This document shows, piece after piece, positions 1 through 31,152 of a DNA stretch of 34,121 nt. Positions within the stretch are counted from its first letter, which is position 1. Every line of letters starts with the position of its first letter. Made by a program: the position numbers and the translations under genes. The notes beneath the pieces were generated by a model. It did no database searches and was not told the origin of the DNA. It was given only the letters and a program-made list of their open reading frames with translations. Location: positions 1 to 34,121 of the IMG/VR virus record IMGVR_UViG_3300025508_000075. One strand, written 5' to 3'. Source of the stretch: a virus.

Positions 1-2957
1 TTAAATTGTCCTCCACCTGTTGCACCGAAGCTAGAAGTTAAGCTAAATGCTCTATCAACTGTTTGTGCTTCGGCATCTGTAATTCTTAAAGTAAAATTAT
101 AAGTTGTTGGTGTAGTTGAACTACCACCAAAATCACTTGTTGTTATCACACCTGTAGATGAATTTAAAGTACAATTTGCTTGTGAGGCATTTGTTAATAC
201 AGATGTTACTTCAGAAAAAGTTATTGAACTATCAGAAGAACCTGCAACTGTTGCTACAGTTCCTGAAAAATTACCAGCAATCGTACCTAATGATCCTGCT
301 GCTGTAGAAAAACTAGGTGCAGTTGAAGCTGTAATAATATTGTTTGTTGATCTTCCAGCATTACCATCTGGATTTTCAACTCTAACATAATAATTGCCAC
401 TTGCTAAAGTTACATTAACTGAAAGTGTCGTTGCGTTTGTAAATGAAACTGTATTAGAATTTGTAATAGCACCTGTTGAACCATTAACAAATTCAACAGA
501 GGGTATTGAAACAAAGTTTGTTCCTGTAATACTTATTGTTGTAGCTGAAGCTGGAGCAATAGTTTGAGATACATTGGCTACTGTTGGTTTAGTTTCTGCT
601 GCATCAATCCAAGATAATTGGTTTGTGCTTGAACCATTACTAGCTAAAACTTGATTTGCTGATCCAACTGATGTTGGTAAAATTAAAGTGTATGATTGTC
701 CAGCAGAGTGAGCTGGAGATTGTATTTTAACTCCATGAGAATTTTGTGAACAATTTAAAGTAATCTTACCATCTGCTGAAGAACCATCTCCTCTTGCAGT
801 TAAACTATTAGCTTCTACTGTAGCAGTAGTAAGAGTTTTACCTGCCATTGTCGTAGGTAATCTTGCATCATTTAAAGTTCCTGATGTAATATTTGATGCA
901 GCTATACTTGCAACATTGAATGTTCCAAAACCAACTATATCAATAATATCTGCTTGTGTTGCACCAGTTGCTAATACTACTGATGTTCCTGAAGTTACAG
1001 TTACATCTGTACCATTAACTAATTTAACACCATTTAAATATACATCTATAAATCCTGCATCATAAGCAAGTGTATTGCCATTATCATCTGATCCTGTAAA
1101 TGTAGTTTGATTTGCAGAAGCTGTGTATTTAAATCTTGCAGATGTTCCATTAACTGTAGAACCTGCTGCTGCCCAACCAGATGATTTATAAACTTTTAAT
1201 TCATTAGCAGTAGTGTCAAAATATAAATCACCCACATCCAAAGAACTACTTGGTGCTGAACTTGCAACTCTATATCTTTCACCAAAACTATTAACACCAG
1301 TAATATTTGCTGCTGTTGTATTAACATTTGATATTGAACCAGCTACAGTATTAACATTAGAAATAGAACCACCTACATTAGTAACATTAGTATTGTTAGA
1401 TGCTACTGTATTAATGTTAGTTGAGTTACCAGCAACTGTATTTACATTTGCTATTGATCCACCAACATTTGTTACATTAGTATTATTAGATGCAACTGTA
1501 TTTATGTTTGTAGAGTTTCCAGCTACAGCAGTAATGTTAGAATCATTATTTGCAACTGTTGTAATATTAGAACTGATTGCAGCTACTGTTGAAACTTCTG
1601 TAGCTTTAGGAGTTAATCTATGAAAAGTGTAAGTATTTAATGTTGTAGTTGTTTCTACAAGTACACCAAATCCTGCTGTTAAAACTGTAGAACCACATCC
1701 AGTTATTGTTACTGTAGAACCACCTACAGTTCCACTTGATATACTAACAGTTCCTCCAGAGGGTGTTCTTGTACTTGATATTGCTTGTATTGAAACGATT
1801 GTTCCTGCACCATCATTTACATCTGGATTTGTATTTGGAAAACTTGTTTCATTTGCTATAGGAAAAAAACCACCTACATCATCTACTAAATCTATAACTC
1901 TTGCATTGATAGCAGCAGTTGTTGCTATGAAGTCATCACTATTAGACCATGATTGACCAGAGTTAATTAATTCAGATGTATCTTTATTTAAAAATCTAGT
2001 GTCAGATGCTGATGTTGTATAGAAAGTATTATTGTCTGGTGTATGAGATGCTTGTTCTGAACTTGTAACTATAGCTGCATCTGCAATCTTACCAATCGTT
2101 ACAGCATCATCTGCTATCTTTGCAGTAGTTACATTAGTATCAGCTATCTTTGCTGTTGTAATTTGTGAGTCTGCAATATGTGCAGTATCAATACTACCAT
2201 CTACATAATGTTCTGAATCTATACTATCATCTGCAATCTTACTTCCATTAACTGCGTCTGCATTTATTTTAGCAGTTGTAATTCCATTGTCAGCTATTTT
2301 AGCTGTTGTAACATTTGCATCTGTAATTTTTGCAGTAGTAATTGCATTGTCTGCTATTTTAGTTGTAGTAACTGCATTAGCATTTATCTTTGCTTCTGTA
2401 ACTGCATTAGCATTTACTTGTGATGCTTGAACTGCATTGTCAGCAATCTTTGCATTAGTAACTGCATCATCTGCAATTTTAACTGTAGTAACAGAACCAT
2501 CTGCTAATGTTATAGTTGTAACAATTCCAGTTGGAATTGAATTACTTGTTTTAGATAATATACCAATATAAACATTTGAGATAGAACCTGATGTAAGAGT
2601 TCCAGAATCAAAAGTAACATTGATTGTTGTATTAGAAGAAAATGAAGATGAAGCTATTGTTCCAACTAAAGTATTAGCTGAATCTATAATTTTAATTCTT
2701 CTACCTGCATGATAGATTGCACTTACATCTACACCATTAATTGTAAAAGAAGTTGCTGATGCGTAAGCTGCTGTATAAGCACCATCACCATCACCATATT
2801 CTATCCATTGTGCATCATTGAACCACTCTCTAGTATTCTTCATCAATGCTCTGATTGCATTGTTTAGATTAGAAGGTAGCATTCCTTCTGCAACAGAAAT
2901 ACCATTTAATGATGTGTTACTAGCTTGTGTTGTTGAATAATCTTTTATACCTGCCAC
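1..2957 (-). CDS. Tail fibre protein, 3' end cut by window edge
   Basis: Long repetitive fibre, 985 codons visible and no stop before the edge. The GTG start at 2957 follows a good Shine-Dalgarno (AGGAG) that overlaps the end of the 49-aa gene upstream. The N-terminus (AGIKDYSTTQASNTS, then LPSNLNNAIRALMKNTREWF) looks like the virion-attachment end of marine podovirus fibres. A block of about 14 decapeptides built on T-x-KIAD follows, then a second decapeptide block (N-I-N-T-V-A type), then a beta-rich region with two Ig/cadherin-like segments. The last visible residues are GGGQF; by comparison with the gene at the right edge, the natural end is probably one Asn codon and a stop away. Role: host attachment, inferred from position after the nozzle gene and from the repeats. 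A plus-strand reading frame over 1213-1623 is only a shadow of the repeats. Confidence 0.85.
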   Translation of the reverse strand, partial: MAGIKDYSTTQASNTSLNGISVAEGMLPSNLNNAIRALMKNTREWFNDAQWIEYGDGDGAYTAAYASATSFTINGVDVSAIYHAGRRIKIIDSANTLVGTIASSSFSSNTTINVTFDSGTLTSGSISNVYIGILSKTSNSIPTGIVTTITLADGSVTTVKIADDAVTNAKIADNAVQASQVNANAVTEAKINANAVTTTKIADNAITTAKITDANVTTAKIADNGITTAKINADAVNGSKIADDSIDSEHYVDGSIDTAHIADSQITTAKIADTNVTTAKIADDAVTIGKIADAAIVTSSEQASHTPDNNTFYTTSASDTRFLNKDTSELINSGQSWSNSDDFIATTAAINARVIDLVDDVGGFFPIANETSFPNTNPDVNDGAGTIVSIQAISSTRTPSGGTVSISSGTVGGSTVTITGCGSTVLTAGFGVLVETTTTLNTYTFHRLTPKATEVSTVAAISSNITTVANNDSNITAVAGNSTNINTVASNNTNVTNVGGSIANVNTVAGNSTNINTVASNNTNVTNVGGSISNVNTVAGSISNVNTTAANITGVNSFGERYRVASSAPSSSLDVGDLYFDTTANELKVYKSSGWAAAGSTVNGTSARFKYTASANQTTFTGSDDNGNTLAYDAGFIDVYLNGVKLVNGTDVTVTSGTSVVLATGATQADIIDIVGFGTFNVASIAASNITSGTLNDARLPTTMAGKTLTTATVEANSLTARGDGSSADGKITLNCSQNSHGVKIQSPAHSAGQSYTLILPTSVGSANQVLASNGSSTNQLSWIDAAETKPTVANVSQTIAPASATTISITGTNFVSIPSVEFVNGSTGAITNSNTVSFTNATTLSVNVTLASGNYYVRVENPDGNAGRSTNNIITASTAPSFSTAAGSLGTIAGNFSGTVATVAGSSDSSITFSEVTSVLTNASQANCTLNSSTGVITTSDFGGSSTTPTTYNFTLRITDAEAQTVDRAFSLTSSFGATGGGQF
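1283..1610 (-). repeat. Second decapeptide block, partly a 90-bp repeat
   Basis: Ten-residue units such as TNINTVASNN, TNVTNVGGSI and NVNTVAGNS. Three of these make a 30-residue (90-bp) super-unit that occurs twice almost unchanged, with further diverged units on both sides. Limits are approximate. Probably a coiled or beta-helical shaft segment. Confidence 0.75.
2069..2496 (-). repeat. Decapeptide (30-bp) tandem repeats in fibre
   Basis: Reading the minus strand, about 14 consecutive ten-residue units follow the pattern x-T-x-KIAD-x-x-V/I (for example TTAKIADDAV, TTTKIADNAI). Units near the middle have drifted (EHYVDGSI, QVNANAV). The DNA period is 30 bp. Limits are approximate. Such arrays form extended fibre shafts and can change copy number by slippage. 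Confidence 0.8.
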
Positions 2958-2958
2958 T

Positions 2959-3108
2959 TTATTCTCCTATGAACCAAGCAAATGCTTTATTGTTTTCTTG
3001 ATTCTTTTCGTTAATCAATGCGTTGATAGCTTCTTCAATTTGTCTTTGAAAGAACTCTTGAGTTTCAAAACTGTATCTCACATTATCTATATCACTTTTA
3101 TCTGTCAT
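2959..3108 (-). CDS. Small conserved-looking virion-region protein (49 aa)
   Basis: Begins MTDKSDIDNVRYSFETQ and ends AFAWFIGE. The ATG at 3108 is chosen because it overlaps the stop of the nozzle gene (ATGA), the usual coupling in this genome; the frame stays open upstream to 3159 but that would overlap the nozzle gene by over 50 bases. The sequence FFQRQIEEAINALINEKN suggests an amphipathic helix. It lies between nozzle and fibre genes, so it could be a small tail assembly or connector protein. Similar short proteins sit next to fibre genes in marine podoviruses; the function is unknown. Confidence 0.7.
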   Translation of the reverse strand: MTDKSDIDNVRYSFETQEFFQRQIEEAINALINEKNQENNKAFAWFIGE

Positions 3109-4571
3109 CTCAAGCCTGATCTTGATGCAACAATATCTATTCCTTGTGCATCTTTCCAAGCTCCTCCACTTGGTATTTTTACATTAAATTTTACATATCT
3201 TCCAGATTGTCTTACTGGATTAATACCTGTTGTATTCATACTTGAAACAGATGATTCTGTACTACTATCTGCTAGTTTATCTCTAGTTTTTATAGTTACA
3301 GTAGCTTCAGCATCTACAATAGGTCTTACACCTATTATATTTGATCTTGTTCCTGGAAACAACTCAATTTCTGAAGTTTCTATTTCTCCTACATTTGCAG
3401 TACCAGAAAAGATAGCTGCTTTAAAATTATTATCTATTGCACCTAATAGTAATTGTCCTCCAGACCAAAAGTCAGTATCTAAAGCAATATTAATTTGATC
3501 CAAGTTTTGAGATATAATATCCATTAACTCTACTGTATATGCACCAACAAACTGTGAAAATATTGTACTAGCATTAGCTTCAGCAGTTGACCATTTTTGT
3601 GTAGCATAATTATAAATTAATATTTTATCACAAATACCTGTAGTGTTAGATGTATTAGAAGCTGAAGGATATAACCACATAGCAAGTTGATTAAATGGAT
3701 CAACAGCAGCACATATTCTATCAGCAAATGCTTTATTTAAATCTACATCAAAAAATCTATTTACTTTTTCTGCACCAATAGAAATAACTTGATCGCCATT
3801 GATTTCAAAGAAACCATCATCTGCATAAAAGAATACTCTACGATTATCTTGACAAACTGTTCTACCATATACTGCACCTCTGTTAGGTGATATTACTGAT
3901 AATCTAAATACTGTTGCACCACCTACATAGTCCATACGAACTATTTGATTTTGCCTAAACACATAACCAATCTCTCCTGATGTTATGTGTGTAATCTGTC
4001 CACCTGAACCTGGTAGGTCTTGCAAGTCTGATTGTTTAGTTCCAGGCGACCAAGTTCCAATATCATTGATACCTGACCATTGTATTCTATTAGATGCGTT
4101 ACTATGATTTCCTGTAACTAAAAAATCTCTAATAACTCCTGATACTCTAAAGTTAGGTAAAGTACCACTTGTTGTAATAGTAGATAAATTTGCAAAATTA
4201 GTTGATGTACCCATTAAAAAATATTGTGGAGCATCTACACCATTTGTTGCAATTATATAATTACCAAATTGTGTAAAAGTCCAAAAGTCATCATTAGAAC
4301 CTGTAAGACTTCCTTTTCTTGAAGTAAAAGTACCACCAGCTAATTGATATATATTTGTGTTTGTAGAAACAAAATTAAAAACTGTATTTGAATTATCTCT
4401 AAATGAACCAGCACCTCTACTATCAGCAGCAATATTATTTGATGAATAACTTACTAATGATGGAAATCTTTTATAGGATTGTCTTGCAAAATAAACATTG
4501 TTAGCAACATTAGCACCAGGATTATTATGCTCTGGTTGGTCAGGAAGCCATTCGCCAAAAGGTACTTGCAT
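3105..4571 (-). CDS. Tail nozzle / P22 gp10-like tail tube protein
   Basis: 488 aa, beginning MQVPFGEWLPDQPEHNNPGA, an opening typical of podoviral tail-nozzle or head-completion proteins just after the adaptor gene. The body is rich in beta strands and turns (FRDNSNTVFNFVSTNTNIYQ; IQWSGINDIGTWSPG), as expected of a beta-propeller, with a C-terminal beta domain. It is expected to extend the portal-adaptor channel and carry the fibres. A Shine-Dalgarno (AGGAG) lies 5 bases before the ATG; the adaptor stop is 7 bases upstream. Function comes from gene order and general sequence character; a specific family match was not computed. Confidence 0.75.
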   Translation of the reverse strand: MQVPFGEWLPDQPEHNNPGANVANNVYFARQSYKRFPSLVSYSSNNIAADSRGAGSFRDNSNTVFNFVSTNTNIYQLAGGTFTSRKGSLTGSNDDFWTFTQFGNYIIATNGVDAPQYFLMGTSTNFANLSTITTSGTLPNFRVSGVIRDFLVTGNHSNASNRIQWSGINDIGTWSPGTKQSDLQDLPGSGGQITHITSGEIGYVFRQNQIVRMDYVGGATVFRLSVISPNRGAVYGRTVCQDNRRVFFYADDGFFEINGDQVISIGAEKVNRFFDVDLNKAFADRICAAVDPFNQLAMWLYPSASNTSNTTGICDKILIYNYATQKWSTAEANASTIFSQFVGAYTVELMDIISQNLDQINIALDTDFWSGGQLLLGAIDNNFKAAIFSGTANVGEIETSEIELFPGTRSNIIGVRPIVDAEATVTIKTRDKLADSSTESSVSSMNTTGINPVRQSGRYVKFNVKIPSGGAWKDAQGIDIVASRSGLR

Positions 4572-20466: not shown

Positions 20467-20643
20467 ATGTCATTGGGTCAGTCAAATAAAAAGTTTGATT
20501 GGCTCAATGATTTAACAATTAGAGATAAAGATACATCAAGATTAGATGAACTAGCAAATCTTTATAATAAAACTAAAGATAAAAAATATTCTAAAGAGTG
20601 GTATGTGTTAGTTCAAAAAATTACTAAACAACTTAATTCTTAA
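20467..20643 (+). CDS. Small early protein (58 aa)
   Basis: MSLGQSNKKFDWLNDLTIRD, then RLDELANLYNKTKDKKYSKE and VQKITKQLNS. It follows the HTH gene by 5 bases and converges with the zinc-ribbon gene, overlapping it by 11 bases. Helical; no family recognised. Last plus-strand gene. Confidence 0.6.
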   Translation: MSLGQSNKKFDWLNDLTIRDKDTSRLDELANLYNKTKDKKYSKEWYVLVQKITKQLNS

Positions 20644-20824
20644 CTTCATTTTCATAAGTCTTATCATCATCAGCTTTACGCATACATTGATAATGAGCTT
20701 TACCTTTGGGATAGAAAGCAACAAAGCTATCTTGGTTGGTCATGTCTTGACCACAATATTTACACTTTCCTATGTCTATGATTATTACTTTTGGTTTCTT
20801 CCAGACTTTCTTATGTTTTGGCAT
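20633..20824 (-). CDS. Zinc-ribbon protein (63 aa)
   Basis: MPKHKKVWKKPKVIIIDIGK, then CKYCGQDMTNQDSF and HYQCMRKADD. CxxC with later His/Cys gives a possible zinc site; N-terminus strongly basic. Last gene of the late minus-strand block, overlapping the basic protein gene upstream by 14 bases. Perhaps a nucleic-acid binding protein. Confidence 0.7.
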   Translation of the reverse strand: MPKHKKVWKKPKVIIIDIGKCKYCGQDMTNQDSFVAFYPKGKAHYQCMRKADDDKTYENEVKN

Positions 20825-21050
20825 AGTTAGGTCTTTTGCCTTTTCTGGATTTTCTTTCAGCTTTCTTTTTTCTTGAAACAGCAGAGGCTCTTTGACTTGC
20901 AGACATTGATCTAGCTTTTGCTAGTGGTACACACTTTGGATAATTTTTTCTTTTCTCTCCTTTTGATCTACCACATGGAGGAAAGCCACCACCTTTTTTA
21001 CGATTGGCAATGTCCACCCATTTTTCTGATGTCCACTTTCTTAAACTCAT
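20811..21050 (-). CDS. Very basic phage protein (79 aa)
   Basis: MSLRKWTSEKWVDIANRKKG, then GGFPPCGRSKGEKRKNYPKC and KARSMSASQRASAVSRKKKA, ending with many Lys and Arg. The 'KWVDI ... KKGGGFPPCGR ... YPKCVPLAKARSMS' pattern recurs in marine phages (I recall it as DUF5872). Very positive charge and two Cys suggest DNA or RNA binding. The overlapping frame 20918 on the plus strand is a shadow. Confidence 0.8.
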   Translation of the reverse strand: MSLRKWTSEKWVDIANRKKGGGFPPCGRSKGEKRKNYPKCVPLAKARSMSASQRASAVSRKKKAERKSRKGKRPNYAKT

Positions 21051-21184
21051 CTTTTTCTTTTAGTTTTCTTTTTACCAACTTTACCTTTGCAATACTTACT
21101 TGCCCACATATTTGCATAAGCAGATGGATATACTTTAAATTTTCGCTTCGCTGCAGCTTTACCAGCAGCACATAATTTAGCCAT
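21047..21184 (-). CDS. Basic microprotein (45 aa)
   Basis: MAKLCAAGKAAAKRKFKVYP, then SAYANMWASKYCKGKVGKKK and a basic end. 13 Lys, 3 Arg, no Asp or Glu. ATGA overlap with the basic gene downstream and an 8-base overlap with the gene upstream. The 'CAAGKAAAKRKFKVYPSAYAN' style is familiar in marine phages; function unknown, possibly nucleoprotein. Confidence 0.75.
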   Translation of the reverse strand: MAKLCAAGKAAAKRKFKVYPSAYANMWASKYCKGKVGKKKTKRKR

Positions 21185-21380
21185 TATCTAACTCCTTTAC
21201 AATTTTTAATTTTTCTTCAGCAGTTGCAATCTTTTCTACTAACTTATCTACTTCATCTATGTGTTGTGGGTGTTCTCCAATACCAACACTATTGTTAAAA
21301 TATATTTTTATTGTTGCTTCAGCTTCACAAATTTGAGCTTCATATCTTTTCTCTAATGCTTTTAAGATATGTTGCTTCAT
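21177..21380 (-). CDS. Helical protein with GIGEH motif (67 aa)
   Basis: MKQHILKALEKRYEAQICEA, then IKIYFNNSVGIGEHPQHIDE and a long helix ending LKIVKELDNG. The 'YFNNSVGIGEHP' segment recurs in a phage protein group of unknown function, in my recollection. It is the one acidic-neutral member inside an otherwise basic cassette, so it may partner the basic proteins. Confidence 0.75.
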   Translation of the reverse strand: MKQHILKALEKRYEAQICEAEATIKIYFNNSVGIGEHPQHIDEVDKLVEKIATAEEKLKIVKELDNG

Positions 21381-21523
21381 GCACTATGTCTTTTTTGTAC
21401 CATAAATTTAGCTGTCTTGACAGCACCTTTGTGTGGCTTGTATGCACCTTTCATAAGTTTATATGAACTACCTTTTTTCATCCAATGAAATCCTTTAGGT
21501 GCTTTTACAGATTTTTTCATCAT
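21377..21523 (-). CDS. Basic microprotein (48 aa)
   Basis: MMKKSVKAPKGFHWMKKGSS, then YKLMKGAYKPHKGAVKTAKF and VQKRHSA. 13 Lys, no acids. Two adjacent ATG codons (21523 and 21520); the first fits the ATGA overlap with the preceding gene. The 'KAPKGFHWMKKG..YKLMKG..KPHKGA' pattern recurs in marine phages. Confidence 0.7.
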   Translation of the reverse strand: MMKKSVKAPKGFHWMKKGSSYKLMKGAYKPHKGAVKTAKFMVQKRHSA

Positions 21524-21645
21524 ACTTTTTTCTTTTTCTTTTTTCTTTTTTTCATAGCTTTAAAATCTGCACCTGTAATTTTATTTCTAGGTGGTGCAAC
21601 TCTTGCTAATTTTTTTTGCTTTGCACTATATTTACTAAATGGCAT
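21520..21645 (-). CDS. Lys-rich microprotein (41 aa)
   Basis: MPFSKYSAKQKKLARVAPPR, then NKITGADFKAM and a C-terminal run of nine basic residues. 14 Lys, 3 Arg, 1 Asp. Stop overlaps the following ATG. Weak Shine-Dalgarno (GGAGGGTTAAAA, rather distant). Pattern recurs in marine phages; probably nucleic-acid binding. Confidence 0.65.
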   Translation of the reverse strand: MPFSKYSAKQKKLARVAPPRNKITGADFKAMKKRKKKKKKV

Positions 21646-21696
21646 AATTTTTTAACCCTCCAACATTCCCATCTAACTAGTAGATACTCCTGATAA

Positions 21697-21768
21697 TTAA
21701 TATTTGTTTTTCATTTTTTTGCTTTTCTTCTTCTTTTTCTTTTTATCTTTTTTTTTCTTCATATACAT
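21697..21768 (-). CDS. Polylysine micropeptide (23 aa)
   Basis: Starts MYMKKKKD, continues with seven Lys in a row and ends KKMKNKY: 15 Lys of 23 residues. It has one of the best Shine-Dalgarno sites of the cassette (AAGGAGATAACT before the ATG), overlapping the stop of the gene upstream. Tiny, so not certain, but the ribosome site argues for expression. A DNA-condensing role is speculation. Confidence 0.5.
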   Translation of the reverse strand: MYMKKKKDKKKKKKKSKKMKNKY

Positions 21769-21770
21769 AG

Positions 21771-21902
21771 TTATCTCCTTTTATTTTTACGACCCATATA
21801 CCAATCTCCAGGTTCATAATTCCATCTTTTACCATGATGACCCCTTATATCAGCATATAGCATTCTAGCTCTCACTATTAATTTTATAATTGACCTTACC
21901 AT
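21771..21902 (-). CDS. Small basic protein (43 aa)
   Basis: MVRSIIKLIVRARMLYADIR, then GHHGKRWNYEPGDWYMGRKN and KRR. An amphipathic basic helix followed by a Trp/Gly motif; no other small gene here has it. Overlaps the preceding gene by 7 bases and precedes the polylysine peptide by two bases. 'RGHHGKRWNYEPGDWY' looks like a conserved block; unknown function. Confidence 0.7.
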   Translation of the reverse strand: MVRSIIKLIVRARMLYADIRGHHGKRWNYEPGDWYMGRKNKRR

Positions 21903-22135
21903 TTTTTGCAAGACCAATATCTAGCACTAAATACATCCTTTGCAGTAGCACACTTGTGTCTTGCTCTAAATGATTTTCTTCTAGCAGGATTAGATTTTTT
22001 AATAGTCATATTAGCATCACCATATCTAATAATCTTTTCTTTCCCACCTTTACAGGCTTTGACTACAAATTTTTTACCACCTTGTACTTGTCGTCTAGGT
22101 GAATTACATTTCATTTTTGATTTATCTATTGCCAT
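21896..22135 (-). CDS. Basic phage protein with RRKSFRARHKC block (79 aa)
   Basis: MAIDKSKMKCNSPRRQVQGG, then KKFVVKACKGGKEKIIRYGD and NPARRKSFRARHKCATAKDV, ending SARYWSCKKW. Four Cys and many Lys/Arg. The 'VVKACKGGKEKIIRYGD' and 'RRKSFRARHKC' blocks recur in phages of many hosts as an uncharacterised group, possibly binding zinc and DNA. TAATG-type junction with the gene before it. Confidence 0.8.
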   Translation of the reverse strand: MAIDKSKMKCNSPRRQVQGGKKFVVKACKGGKEKIIRYGDANMTIKKSNPARRKSFRARHKCATAKDVFSARYWSCKKW

Positions 22136-22317
22136 TAATCTATTTTATCAACTCCATCAAAGTATTTATAATCAAATTCTACAACTCTACAATCATGTTT
22201 TTTACGCATGGACTTTTGTTTGTCTGCAAATTCAATAGCTTTATCTTCAGATTGAAAGATTGTATTAGTGAACATCTTATATTTATCATCTTGTTTCCAT
22301 ACCACACAATAAATCAT
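22135..22317 (-). CDS. Small protein (60 aa)
   Basis: MIYCVVWKQDDKYKMFTNTI, then FQSEDKAIEFADKQKSMRKK and VVEFDYKYFDGVDKID. Strand-strand-helix-strand, like a small ferredoxin-like fold. ATGA overlap with the secreted protein upstream. Not recognised. Confidence 0.65.
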   Translation of the reverse strand: MIYCVVWKQDDKYKMFTNTIFQSEDKAIEFADKQKSMRKKHDCRVVEFDYKYFDGVDKID

Positions 22318-22550
22318 GCTTTTACTTTTGGTTTAGGTGGAGGTACTACTACTTCCTGACAACCAAACTTTGAATATATTTGAAATTGATTTGTTTCTTG
22401 TCTGCCTATTTCTTTAGTTTTATCTAATGATTTTTGGTAACCATCTAATAAACAATCATAATAACTATCATATACTTTTGGAAAAGTATGTGGGTCTAAA
22501 CAAGTGTTGGCTATGGTACTGCACATAACTATTGTTAGCATTATTTTCAT
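22314..22550 (-). CDS. Putative exported Cys-containing protein (78 aa)
   Basis: MKIMLTIVMCSTIANTCLDP resembles a short signal peptide; then YDSYYDCLLDGYQKSLDKTK, FQIYSKFGC, and a Pro/Lys tail (PPPKPKVKA). Cys at about 17, 33 and 64 could form disulfides in the periplasm. Lies next to a coiled-coil protein, holin and lysozyme, so it may belong to lysis (spanin-like?), but no motif proves that. Confidence 0.65.
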   Translation of the reverse strand: MKIMLTIVMCSTIANTCLDPHTFPKVYDSYYDCLLDGYQKSLDKTKEIGRQETNQFQIYSKFGCQEVVVPPPKPKVKA

Positions 22551-22750
22551 TTATCATCCTTCTTATCCTCCAACTTTTTGATCTTATCATTAGCATCTTC
22601 AAGGTCTTTGGTTAAATGTTCTAATTTTTGCAAACATCTTTTGTTTGCTGAATCTTTAGATTTACCAGCATCCTGTAATTCTGCAACCTCTTGTTTCAGA
22701 ATACGAACCTGATCTTTATATTCGTTTATTAAATCTATATTATCAGACAT
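22547..22750 (-). CDS. Coiled-coil protein next to holin (67 aa)
   Basis: MSDNIDLINEYKDQVRILKQ, then EVAELQDAGKSKDSANKRCL and a charged helix ending KKLEDKKDDK. Mostly one long charged helix with Leu/Ile heptads. Overlaps the holin stop by TAATG. Could be a lysis accessory with the exported protein; unproven. Confidence 0.65.
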   Translation of the reverse strand: MSDNIDLINEYKDQVRILKQEVAELQDAGKSKDSANKRCLQKLEHLTKDLEDANDKIKKLEDKKDDK

Positions 22751-23139
22751 TATTTTTTTTTAAAAGTAGAAACACCTTTGATACCTAGAATTGTAGAAAA
22801 TGCACCGACTACAAGAGCTTGATAAAACATTGGAAGATTTGCAAACTTGTCAAAAAATATATCTATCTTTGCTTGTATATCTGGATCATCACTAAACACA
22901 GACCAAGCTAATAAAAGCAGAGGAATTGAGATCAGCACCAAACAAAATTCGTCTTTCCAATCATTTCTATGTGAATCAATAACAGCTTTTTTAAATTCTA
23001 CCTCACCATTTGCCATGCGTTCAGCCAATTTTAATTCAGCTACTGACTCTAATTCTTTAGTCTTTCTTCTATTGGAAGCAATAGACATACCAGTTTTAAT
23101 CATACCTGGAACTAATTTAGATGCTATACTTAACCACAT
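22750..23139 (-). CDS. Holin (GTA 3TM holin-like)
   Basis: 129 aa. N-terminal amphipathic segment (MWLSIASKLVPGMIKTGMSI), a charged helix, RNDWKDEFCLVLISIPLLLL as first clear span, then FYQALVVGAFSTILGIKGV as second, ending in a basic tail TFKKK. This is the layout of the 'holin of 3TMs, for gene-transfer release' family of alphaproteobacterial phages and GTAs. It forms inner membrane pores that release or trigger the lysozyme encoded next to it. TAATG with the lysozyme stop. Confidence 0.85.
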   Translation of the reverse strand: MWLSIASKLVPGMIKTGMSIASNRRKTKELESVAELKLAERMANGEVEFKKAVIDSHRNDWKDEFCLVLISIPLLLLAWSVFSDDPDIQAKIDIFFDKFANLPMFYQALVVGAFSTILGIKGVSTFKKK

Positions 23140-23570
23140 TATGACTTTGCACTCCTCATTTTTCCAGCTAACTTACCTGCTCTAGCTGGTGTTTGTTTTG
23201 CCCAAAGTGAGTCTAGCATTTGGAATGATGCCTCACCATAATCTTCTCTATCTAAAGCAGACCACATATTTTTAAATTTAGATACACCCCCTTCGCCTAT
23301 CTGATAAACCATATTAACAATTACTTCTTTAGCAATATAATTAATATTTCTTTCACCTATTAGTCTTTCAGCAGCTTGTAGTGTTCTGTTAAAATCTTCT
23401 TCAAATACTTTTTCACCTTCTTCTTTAGTGTATTCTATATCACTTTCATAATCATCATCAGGTGTTATCTTATGTCCATAAAAGATAGTATCAAATCCTT
23501 CTGAACATTTATAAATCTTTGGAACATAACCTTCACATAATTTAATTTCTTCTTTTAGTTCTTCGTACAT
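23139..23570 (-). CDS. Endolysin, T4-like lysozyme (GH24)
   Basis: 143 aa. Compare T4 lysozyme: E13 aligns with catalytic E11 (CEGYVPKIYKCSEGFDTI), C22 occupies the place of D20, and T28 that of T26, followed by YGH. So the E-8-C-5-T triad is used, a known variant of this family. The C-terminal lobe has VNMVYQIGEGGVSKFKNMWS and ARAGK. No signal peptide, so release depends on the holin. Cleaves the glycan chains of peptidoglycan. Confidence 0.92.
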   Translation of the reverse strand: MYEELKEEIKLCEGYVPKIYKCSEGFDTIFYGHKITPDDDYESDIEYTKEEGEKVFEEDFNRTLQAAERLIGERNINYIAKEVIVNMVYQIGEGGVSKFKNMWSALDREDYGEASFQMLDSLWAKQTPARAGKLAGKMRSAKS

Positions 23571-24097: not shown

Positions 24098-24258
24098 AAT
24101 ACTTTACCTTTGTTCTGACCTTGTTTGATAACATATTTTTGTGTACCATGTTTGCCAGTTTCTACTTCTTTTTTTAAATTTTTTACAAAGTTCATTTGCT
24201 TTGTTTTTCTTTCCATATCACTAATGTACTCAACTATTTTTCTAGTAACTCTTTCCAT
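24094..24258 (-). CDS. Small basic protein (54 aa)
   Basis: MERVTRKIVEYISDMERKTK, then QMNFVKNLKKEVETGKHGTQ and KYVIKQGQNKGKVL. Ends in the ATGA overlap with the next gene and overlaps the membrane/coiled-coil gene upstream by 17 bases. Helix then basic tail. No family recognised. Confidence 0.65.
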   Translation of the reverse strand: MERVTRKIVEYISDMERKTKQMNFVKNLKKEVETGKHGTQKYVIKQGQNKGKVL

Positions 24259-24619
24259 TTGCTCTAACCTTATCTTTTAAATCTTCAATATCACTTAATG
24301 CTTTTTCTAATTGATCTCTTAAAAATTCTATATTAACTTTGTTAGTCATATTCATTTCTTGAGTTTCTTCCATTTTTTCTACAGACTTATAAAGATCCTC
24401 TAATAAAAAATGTTGCTCTTGATCTACAGGCACTTGTTCTGATTTTTTAAGCAAATCATTTTCAAACAATTCTCTTGAAGTTTCTAAAGATACTAATCTT
24501 GAAGTTAGCTCTGTGTATGCAAATACACCCATAGCTACTAGAATAATTAAACTAACAACTGTTTTCATTGGCATTTGCACAGCAGCCGATTCAGATATGT
24601 TAAGTGGTTTATTTTTCAT
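24242..24619 (-). CDS. Single-span membrane coiled-coil protein (125 aa)
   Basis: NISESAAVQMPMKTVVSLII, then LVAMGVFAYTELTSRLVSLE: one membrane span (about residues 19-37) and a long coiled coil to the end (IEFLRDQLEKALSDIEDLKD). The same design, with the ISESAAVQMPMKT opening, occurs in cyanophages and other marine phages of unknown role. It could be a virion or lysis membrane protein. Confidence 0.75.
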   Translation of the reverse strand: MKNKPLNISESAAVQMPMKTVVSLIILVAMGVFAYTELTSRLVSLETSRELFENDLLKKSEQVPVDQEQHFLLEDLYKSVEKMEETQEMNMTNKVNIEFLRDQLEKALSDIEDLKDKVRANGKSY

Positions 24620-24983
24620 AATCTACCATTATTAATTTTATACCTAATTTTTTTTGTTCTTTTGTAGGACTTCTACATATTCTGTAAGAACCTTTAGGTT
24701 TGTTTTTTAAACTTTTACCTTTGTTTGTTTTTCTATAGGTATTTGTTTTTATGTCTAGCAGTTGTATTCTACCATCTTTATCTACTATAACAATATCAAA
24801 TGGACAGGCAGGATCACAACTTTTTGCTACATAAAATCCTTGTTTTGTTAGATTAGCAATAGCTTCATATTCACCCACCACACCTTTAATAGATGTTTTC
24901 TTTTGTCTTGCAGAAATATCTATTTGATTAGACTTAAGACTAGATTGACTAGACTTGATATGCTTAATGCAGCTACGAACCAT
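24609..24983 (-). CDS. PD-(D/E)XK endonuclease-like protein (124 aa)
   Basis: GVVGEYEAIANLTKQGF (E38), CPFDIVIVDKDGRI (D63) and LLDIKTNTY (D77-I78-K79): a complete E...D...D-x-K set in the right order and spacing, as in archaeal-resolvase-like nucleases. Two Cys (C56, C60) flank the first Asp. A Lys-rich loop and 'SYRICRSPTKEQKKLGIKLI' complete the fold. Likely acts on branched DNA or on the packaging substrate; alternative is a host-DNA nuclease. The N-terminus overlaps the upstream gene by 64 bases. Confidence 0.75.
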   Translation of the reverse strand: MVRSCIKHIKSSQSSLKSNQIDISARQKKTSIKGVVGEYEAIANLTKQGFYVAKSCDPACPFDIVIVDKDGRIQLLDIKTNTYRKTNKGKSLKNKPKGSYRICRSPTKEQKKLGIKLIMVDYEK

Positions 24984-25126
24984 AATATCTTATATATGTT
25001 ATTTATTTTTTCATCCATGTGAGCTAGATGATTGTTCTTAATGGTATCAATCTTTTGATGTATTAATTTTAATTCACCTTGTAATTTAATTATGTCTTGA
25101 GAATTTTTTTGAGATTGTGTTGGCAT
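24920..25126 (-). CDS. Coiled-coil plus membrane span protein (68 aa), XhlA-like
   Basis: MPTQSQKNSQDIIKLQGELK, then LIHQKIDTIKNNHLAHMDEK and ILWFVAALSISSLVNLVLSL. A soluble helix followed by one C-terminal span, the layout of XhlA-type haemolysin/lysis accessory proteins. TAATG with the 1110-aa gene. Overlaps the nuclease by 64 bases. Confidence 0.7.
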   Translation of the reverse strand: MPTQSQKNSQDIIKLQGELKLIHQKIDTIKNNHLAHMDEKINNIYKILWFVAALSISSLVNLVLSLIK

Positions 25127-30712: not shown

Positions 30713-31152
30713 GTATTCTCCTCTTGTTTAATTTCTTTTTCTAAAACAACATGGGTTCTTTTGTACCCATAATTGTTATAAACTTTTTGCCAACCTGGTC
30801 TAGCAATTATTTCCATTTTTTTACATTGTTGTTCTTTAGCAAACTTTTCAATATCATTAATTAAGTGTTGCCATTTATGTTTTTGTCTGCCAGTTGCAAT
30901 ATAGATATTACAAACTTTACCAAGTTTTCTTTGTATTATCTCTGTTACAACAACACCAAAATACTTATCAATCGTCTTTTGTTTATCTTTATCCCAGATA
31001 ACCCAAATTTGAAATTTGCTTTCTCTAGCAACTTGTAAAACAAAATCTGAATCGGTAAGTTGACTTGAATAAGCTAAAGCAGACTTAATATCTTTTTCTA
31101 CTAATGACCAAACTTTATCAAGTTCTTTAATTGGTATTTGTACTAAATTCAT
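30709..31152 (-). CDS. GNAT-fold acyltransferase-like protein (147 aa)
   Basis: Conserved-looking body: YFGVVVTEIIQRKLGKVCNI, FAKEQQCKKMEIIARPGWQK, VYNNYGYKRTHVVLEKEI. The end fits the GNAT motif B region, with 'R-P-G-W-x-x-x-Y-x-x-Y-G-Y' typical of phage GNAT-like proteins beside ejection genes. The acetyl-CoA-binding Q/RxxGxG/A signature is not evident, so it may be non-enzymatic or use another donor. Four-base overlap (ATGA) with the 236-aa gene. Confidence 0.65.
   Translation of the reverse strand: MNLVQIPIKELDKVWSLVEKDIKSALAYSSQLTDSDFVLQVARESKFQIWVIWDKDKQKTIDKYFGVVVTEIIQRKLGKVCNIYIATGRQKHKWQHLINDIEKFAKEQQCKKMEIIARPGWQKVYNNYGYKRTHVVLEKEIKQEENT

Follow-up and report, generated by a model that had tools for sequence, protein, structure and literature searches.

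A conserved cassette of very small, mostly basic proteins at the end of the structural gene block in a relative of Pelagibacter phage HTVC106P

Why would a virus encode a run of tiny, strongly basic proteins in one overlapping cassette? The question is raised by positions 20811-22135 of the IMG/VR virus record IMGVR_UViG_3300025508_000075, whose 34,121 nucleotides (34 kb, 31% GC) are called the window here. The window comes from a relative of Pelagibacter phage HTVC106P, a phage of the most common bacteria in the ocean, with 82% identical DNA over 86% of the query in the terminase-head module and a portal protein that is 81% identical. The cassette genes are real, conserved in hundreds of sequences from marine viruses, and under purifying selection, the case for the smallest, G, resting on few variants. 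The explanation tentatively favored here is that they encode late-made nucleic acid-binding proteins that act on viral DNA in the head and are probably packaged. The cassette contains eight open reading frames (ORFs).

B, 20811..21050, minus strand: 79 residues, net charge +22, DUF5872-related (W..EKWVD...PCGRSKGEKR.YPKC.P)
C, 21047..21184, minus strand: 45 residues, net charge +16, no acidic residues, core KFKVYPSAYAN
D, 21177..21380, minus strand: 67 residues, acidic, net charge -3, GIGEH motif
E, 21377..21523, minus strand: 48 residues, net charge +14, no acidic residues (KAPKGFHWMKKG..YKLMKG.YKPHKGAV)
F, 21520..21645, minus strand: 41 residues, net charge +16 (YSAKQKKLARVAPPRNKITGADF plus a Lys tail), Shine-Dalgarno sequence GGAGGG
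G, 21697..21768, minus strand: 23 residues, 15 of them Lys; the weakest gene call
H, 21771..21902, minus strand: 43 residues, net charge +9, Arg-rich
I, 21896..22135, minus strand: 79 residues, net charge +20, DUF5754/Tlr6F-related (IRYGDANMTIKKSNPARRKSFRARHKC...ARYWSCKKW)

An initial annotation, made from the letters of the sequence, described this layout accurately. All eight ORFs are present at the sizes and place that it gave, all on the minus strand; the two basic proteins that it found to lack Asp and Glu are C and E, and its non-basic protein with a GIGEH motif is D. Joining by ATGA or short overlaps is likewise seen, with overlaps of 4 nucleotides (ATGA) between D and E, E and F, and C and B, of 8 nucleotides between D and C, and of 7 nucleotides between I and H. 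Gaps of 2 and 51 nucleotides separate H from G and G from F, respectively. Clear Shine-Dalgarno sequences precede F and G, which follow the gaps (that of G is good, AAAAGGAGATAACTATG / AAAAGGAG), and also C, and none is clear for B, D, and E, which overlap the upstream gene. The remark that several members fall below the usual gene-calling size needs correction, as most have already been called in HTVC106P.

Evidence that these frames are genes comes from relatives in IMG/VR, which were first sought with B and I and afterwards with alignments of I and C, and from named phage records; families were traced by iterated hidden Markov model searches. Among the first 172 sequences, homologues of B were found 138 times, C 118, D 37, E 48, F 80, H 28, and I 137, although this first sampling started from B and I. 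Locus counts in general are biased frequencies, given that B, I, and C served as seeds and that some loci share a contig and overlap. The ratio of nonsynonymous to synonymous polymorphism (pN/pS) is 0.26 for B, 0.25 for C, 0.22 for D, 0.22 for E, 0.28 for F, 0.33 for H, and 0.19 for I, and 53-61% of the substitutions in these seven genes fall at third codon positions. The initial annotation had named conservation of order as a check and nonconserved frames as grounds for giving up its proposal; both order and frames are conserved, in IMG/VR contigs and in HTVC106P. Only 105 of 3906 same-strand gene pairs in 318 loci depart from the order of the window; members are missing from some loci, and few are rearranged. 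C stands immediately before B in 192 of 201 loci, the H/I overlap of -7 recurs in 27 of 27, and short overlaps in general (-1, -4, -7, -8, -14) are kept among relatives. E has 26 invariant columns among 9 representatives. G was found in 9 loci as three distinct proteins, all from close relatives, and its few variants are mostly synonymous AAA/AAG swaps plus one in-frame codon insertion.

The second issue is whether the charge is meaningful. The initial annotation had called nearly all of these proteins basic, and in a 58-gene list of the window compiled for this analysis the seven basic proteins take ranks 1 to 7 in charge per residue, with D at rank 52. Random codons at the base composition of the cassette give +0.13 per residue (standard deviation 0.08), whereas the basic proteins have +0.21 to +0.61. 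Relatives of B and I in contigs above 42% GC still carry about +0.2 to +0.3 per residue. For C, charge drops as GC rises (r = -0.78), and no relatives of E and F were found above 42% GC. The basic charge is thus more than a product of A-richness, as it exceeds that of random codons and is kept in GC-rich relatives of B and I; the GC test holds for these two and is weak or missing for C, E, F, G, and H.

The position of the cassette offers a first indication of function. Upstream of it lie four further small genes (J to M, M encoding a membrane protein), a lysozyme-type endolysin gene, and then genes for internal virion, tail, and head proteins, all leftward. Because this structural block runs into the cassette and the rightward genes of the window converge on the gene just downstream (A), the cassette looks like the 3' end of a single long operon that is probably expressed late. 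A scan for promoters and terminators gave no excess over shuffled sequences, and a search for direct repeats at the window ends found nothing longer than one 14-base match.

Placements in other phages point in a similar direction. In HTVC027P, the cassette lies between a portal gene (SU10_portal) and GroES/capsid genes. Relatives of I lie between the scaffold and capsid genes in HTVC041P, close to terminase genes in CRP-3, and, in HTVC202P, four genes ahead of terminase, and they adjoin GroEL in elemo phages; in HTVC008M the neighbor is a cytidyltransferase gene, and in S-CRES1 a lysozyme gene is close. Given the placements in HTVC027P, HTVC041P, CRP-3, HTVC202P, and the elemo phages, cassette members in relatives usually, but with exceptions, neighbor structural, packaging, or chaperone genes; only some neighbor lysis genes.

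The most specific evidence concerns T4-GC119, a large basic protein of T4-like cyanophages whose net charge ranges from +34 to +63 (P-SSM2 gp114, +38; S-SM1_115, +54; S-P4, +63). One of its segments is homologous to B over the full length of B (hhalign probability 97.3%, E = 2.6e-11). Another segment, KSRYSVWPSAYASGALVKC, with a C-like WPSAYAS motif, resembles the core of C, a likeness that is not firm (28.9%), and its C-terminal DUF6321 domain resembles I (RRxSFCAR, final W.C) at a nonsignificant 2.8%; an identification of I as DUF6321 is not claimed, the likeness being at the level of motifs. The idea that T4-GC119 represents the cassette as one fused protein is thus firm for B alone. A motif of the type CW.GY..KG..KKG...VPNCVP accompanies B domains both in HTVC023P-like contigs (L302, L296) and in T4-GC119 (S-SM1_115, S-SSM5_108), and may be another sign of modules shuffled together.

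T4-GC119 genes lie among packaging and tail genes, next to gp16/gp17, and several records connect the protein with the virion. Mass spectrometry (MS) of purified S-SM1 virions identified 41 proteins, which were projected onto other genomes (Sullivan et al. 2010, PMC3037559); elsewhere in that article T4-GC119 is called a hypothetical protein. In the S-SM2, S-SSM5, and P-SSM7 records, T4-GC119 is marked "similar to Synechococcus phage S-SM1 protein." In a 49-kb stretch of S-SM2, 12 other genes carry this mark: VrlC and, for the rest, T4-type virion genes; no gene for replication carries it. The S-P4 record names the protein "Phage T4-like structural protein, T4 GC0119." Presence of T4-GC119 in virions is suggested by these record notes.

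Several lines of evidence support the proposal that the cassette proteins act on DNA in the head: the seven most basic proteins in the gene list cluster in one place, their order and frames are conserved, the charge of B and I is kept in GC-rich relatives, the cassette stands at the end of the structural block and, in other phages, near portal, scaffold, capsid, or terminase genes, and B is homologous to a domain of T4-GC119, whose record notes and names point to the virion. In the proposed mechanism, the cassette would yield several small and strongly basic proteins together, in part through translational coupling. These would be nucleic acid-binding and would neutralize, condense, or organize viral DNA, either in the head or on its way there; some may be packaged and delivered with the genome to the next host cell. 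In the usual view, tailed phages neutralize packaged DNA with polyamines and metal ions, not with basic proteins, and particle-bound basic proteins in abundant marine phages would, if the proposal is true, be notable.

Other observations weigh against this proposal. Late timing, DNA binding, virion presence, and ejection are what we infer for these proteins. The likeness of C and I to T4-GC119 is at the level of motifs, and models of I and B have no significant match in the PDB. Cassette members stand beside lysis genes in S-CRES1 and HTVC106P. The 30 proteins reported from S-SZBM1 virions include neither the DUF6321 protein S-SZBM1_192 nor the basic _194, and no ORF of the window matches a T4-type capsid-targeting pattern. 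The suggestion in the initial annotation of DNA-condensing peptides or ejection cargo is plausible and indirectly supported, by the T4-GC119 domain and the head and packaging gene blocks, but stands against the S-SZBM1 proteome. A literature search found no paper on the virion proteome of pelagiphages in this group. As to histone-like peptides, the other suggestion made there, no histone-like domain was matched in the cassette with Pfam, and the models, made of I and B only, gave no fold match.

The capsid-targeting pattern itself yielded a lead. The N-terminal starts of S-SZBM1_192 and P-SSM7_194, both DUF6321 proteins, resemble the T4 capsid-targeting sequence; the pattern was written after the examples had been seen and is a lead, not a test. 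It matches three proteins in a 50-kb stretch of S-SZBM1, namely _140, _191, and _192 (L322:989-2362, 2390-3478, and 44312-45126). The first is a cytidylyltransferase that was detected in virions, as was its neighbor _139.

The conserved unit extends beyond the genes noted initially. The extent of 20811-22135 was confirmed for those genes, but the unit that travels together is larger, spanning 20633-23139 in the order M-L-K-J-I-(H)-(G)-F-E-D-C-B-A, with A added downstream and J to M upstream; the endolysin gene N adjoins it, outside the conserved set.

A, 20633..20824, minus strand: 63 residues, net charge +6, zinc-ribbon-like (CKYC...HYQC); last gene of the unit
J, 22135..22317, minus strand: 60 residues, neutral; 59 locus-level matches, order conserved
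K, 22314..22550, minus strand: 78 residues, hydrophobic N terminus, Cys-containing; phrog_19893 (4.2e-14), order conserved
L, 22547..22750, minus strand: 67 residues, charged, coiled-coil-like; 74 loci, 88% identical in HTVC106P
M, 22750..23139, minus strand: 129 residues, C-terminal membrane segments, phrog_2524; homologue also in the HTVC027P cassette
N, 23139..23570, minus strand: lysozyme-type endolysin; phrog_7 endolysin (1.6e-15), phrog_13211 (1.4e-21)

A matches Pfam DUF2175 at the cut-off (25.1 bits) and was found in 97 of 172 loci; its 14-nucleotide overlap with B recurs as -14 in 68 of 78. The endolysin appears to be exchangeable, a lysozyme in the window (23139-23570) and an M15A peptidase in HTVC106P (L002:4357-4809), differently placed beside or inside the cassette. 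Farther upstream, at 24242-24619 and 24920-25126, two small proteins have one hydrophobic segment each, followed in the first by a coiled-coil-like stretch; judged by eye, they are possible spanin or internal membrane candidates.

Four other explanations deserve consideration. It is somewhat unlikely, though the strongest of them, that these are non-virion intracellular proteins whose binding targets are ribosomes, RNA polymerase, or the nucleic acid of host or phage, in the service of takeover, nuclease protection, or nucleoid remodeling. High charge would suit such a role, S-SZBM1 virions analyzed by MS lack the DUF6321 relative, and early timing of such genes is possible since all early genes of HTVC027P are function-unassigned (PMC12753301). 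However, the window genes close the structural block, apart from the rightward early-type genes, and the T4-GC119 records point to the virion.

Distinctly less probable is a role as head-assembly or DNA-packaging helpers, residing in the prohead or with terminase or portal and absent from mature particles or present in traces. The portal, scaffold, capsid, and terminase neighbors in HTVC027P, HTVC041P, CRP-3, and HTVC202P and the adjacency of T4-GC119 to gp16/gp17 would fit, whereas the S-SM1 note suggests presence in the finished virion, and the cassette of the window is far from the head genes.

It is improbable that these are lysis-linked cationic peptides of the disruptin type, which would perturb the outer membrane as infection ends. 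In the window, the unit does come after an endolysin gene and has a membrane protein, M, among its products; the HTVC106P unit encloses an M15A peptidase gene; and disruptins are short, cationic, amphipathic phage peptides (PMC12819732). In HTVC027P, however, about 18 kb separate the M15 peptidase gene from the cassette. Moreover, even the best 18-residue helices in B, C, F, and G show weak amphipathicity and are hydrophilic: helix moments are 0.25-0.55 with negative mean hydrophobicity in B, C, E, F, G, and I, H being the exception at 0.50 and a mean of +0.10. Also at odds with this role are the conserved motifs with Trp, Cys, and Gly and the occurrence of relatives in algal viruses, whose hosts have no outer membrane to break. 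Finally, it is highly improbable that the cassette is a set of chance, low-complexity frames. The coding strand is 45% A, random codons there are already basic, and G is almost pure lysine, but for the other members (B to F, H, and I) purifying selection, conserved order, PHROG families, and charge kept in GC-rich relatives refute such Lys-rich chance frames.

Family membership places the proposed DNA-organizing proteins in a wider setting. Near full-length PHROG matches were obtained for B (phrog_23735, 2.3e-25), C (phrog_27331, 1.2e-21), D (phrog_1811, 1e-20), and I (phrog_7595, 1.9e-17), all function-unassigned families; E has no PHROG or Pfam match, and F has at most one weak PHROG match, in one relative. 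In Pfam, B of the window reaches 17.4 bits against DUF5872, over the second half of the profile only and below the gathering cut-off of 27.5, while 12 of 20 relatives match it (best 4e-15); B is filed as DUF5872-related rather than as a member for this reason. I of the window scores 12.7 bits against DUF5754/Tlr6F (cut-off 27.4), and 8 of 14 relatives match (best 1.7e-11, an elemo phage protein). I reaches that protein by tblastn at 1e-5, and it in turn scores 44.4 bits against DUF5754. Judged by these similarities, B and I are members of wide viral families. A tblastn search of phages with C found nothing, probably owing to the low-complexity filter. Two relatives of I match the PHROG family phrog_220, described as "minor head protein and DNA pilot" (best 1.1e-5); because the two are not specified, this match is not used here. 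A search of genome contigs (A6) gave 35 matches, nearly all in metagenome-assembled genomes, and indicated no cellular pathway.

The AlphaFold2 (AF2) model of I shows a β hairpin followed by two helices (predicted local distance difference test score, pLDDT, 82), and that of B short helices and strands (pLDDT 78). For I, Foldseek listed AP2-type and integrase arm-binding domains in nonsignificant rows, which VIA-align did not uphold. The lack of a fold match for I fits the literature on Tlr6F, the family equivalent to DUF5754 (PMC12220804), which is conserved in almost all polinton-like viruses, in several virophages and many giant viruses, and in some phages, and has no known function (PMC4642659).

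HTVC027P and its relatives provide additional candidates. HTVC027P gp44 (KKPGSLRKSLGIKKG..., net charge +25) and gp52 (DUF6321, net charge +27), at L318:28689-28955 and 30722-31000, are further widespread small basic proteins, and relatives of gp52 occur in 336 phage records, mostly cyanophages. In HTVC023P/027P-like contigs, recurrent C-terminal tails are found on unrelated small proteins, including relatives of C and B (L285, L295, L299, L302, L303, L306, L310, L003, L308). The three types, RGxGAAIxGxxFxGvF, xYYGGMI or KYYKGMI, and GCGxVMxxRRKxT, were counted by regular expression in 9, 21, and 16 of 11703 ORFs; they could be a common tag for sorting or packaging.

The cassette was already known gene by gene as hypothetical proteins in HTVC106P; what is new, as far as could be found, is the recognition of A-M as a conserved unit, how far it extends, and the connection of B with T4-GC119. 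A broader but rather doubtful proposition is that tiny basic DNA-organizing proteins form a toolkit shared by marine tailed phages, polinton-like viruses, and algal giant viruses, occurring as separate overlapping genes in pelagiphages and partly fused to one virion protein in T4-like cyanophages, where they would form a head nucleoprotein that enters the cell with the genome.

Comparison with known systems places the cassette among several partial likenesses. HTVC106P gp24-gp35 (MN698244) has the same order, M L K J I F E D C B A, with B, C, D, E, F, and I 72-91% identical to the window proteins and most members annotated "hypothetical protein." Unlike the window, it has no detected G or H, and its M15A peptidase gene lies between J and I, whereas the lysozyme gene of the window is upstream of M. 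HTVC027P gp44-gp52 (MN698241) has adjacent C and B, an M homologue, a DUF6321 protein, and further small basic proteins of +15 to +27, and no homologue of I, E, or F was found in the stretch searched. The disruptin of phage phiKT is, like the cassette proteins, small, cationic, and encoded near lysis genes, by a late gene as is probable for the cassette, but the cassette is a conserved multi-family set with hydrophilic helices and no link to lysis genes in HTVC027P. DUF5872 proteins, such as BQ1_105 of Chrysochromulina parva virus, are matched by relatives of B, the window copy falling below the cut-off, and this algal virus has both DUF5872 and DUF5754. A 2015 study (PMC4642659) singled out Tlr6F as conserved among unrelated DNA viruses, its role not being known. 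Like I, it is a small protein without assigned function, and the family of I is linked to it through intermediates, the window I itself scoring below the cut-off; I adds a fixed cassette with an isolated close relative, HTVC106P, beside B, which is homologous to part of what is probably a cyanophage virion protein, and together these point to the particle interior as a testable place. In T4-GC119, B-like, C-like, and DUF6321 segments are joined in a single large protein beside the terminase genes, whereas the window encodes the cassette proteins as separate genes.

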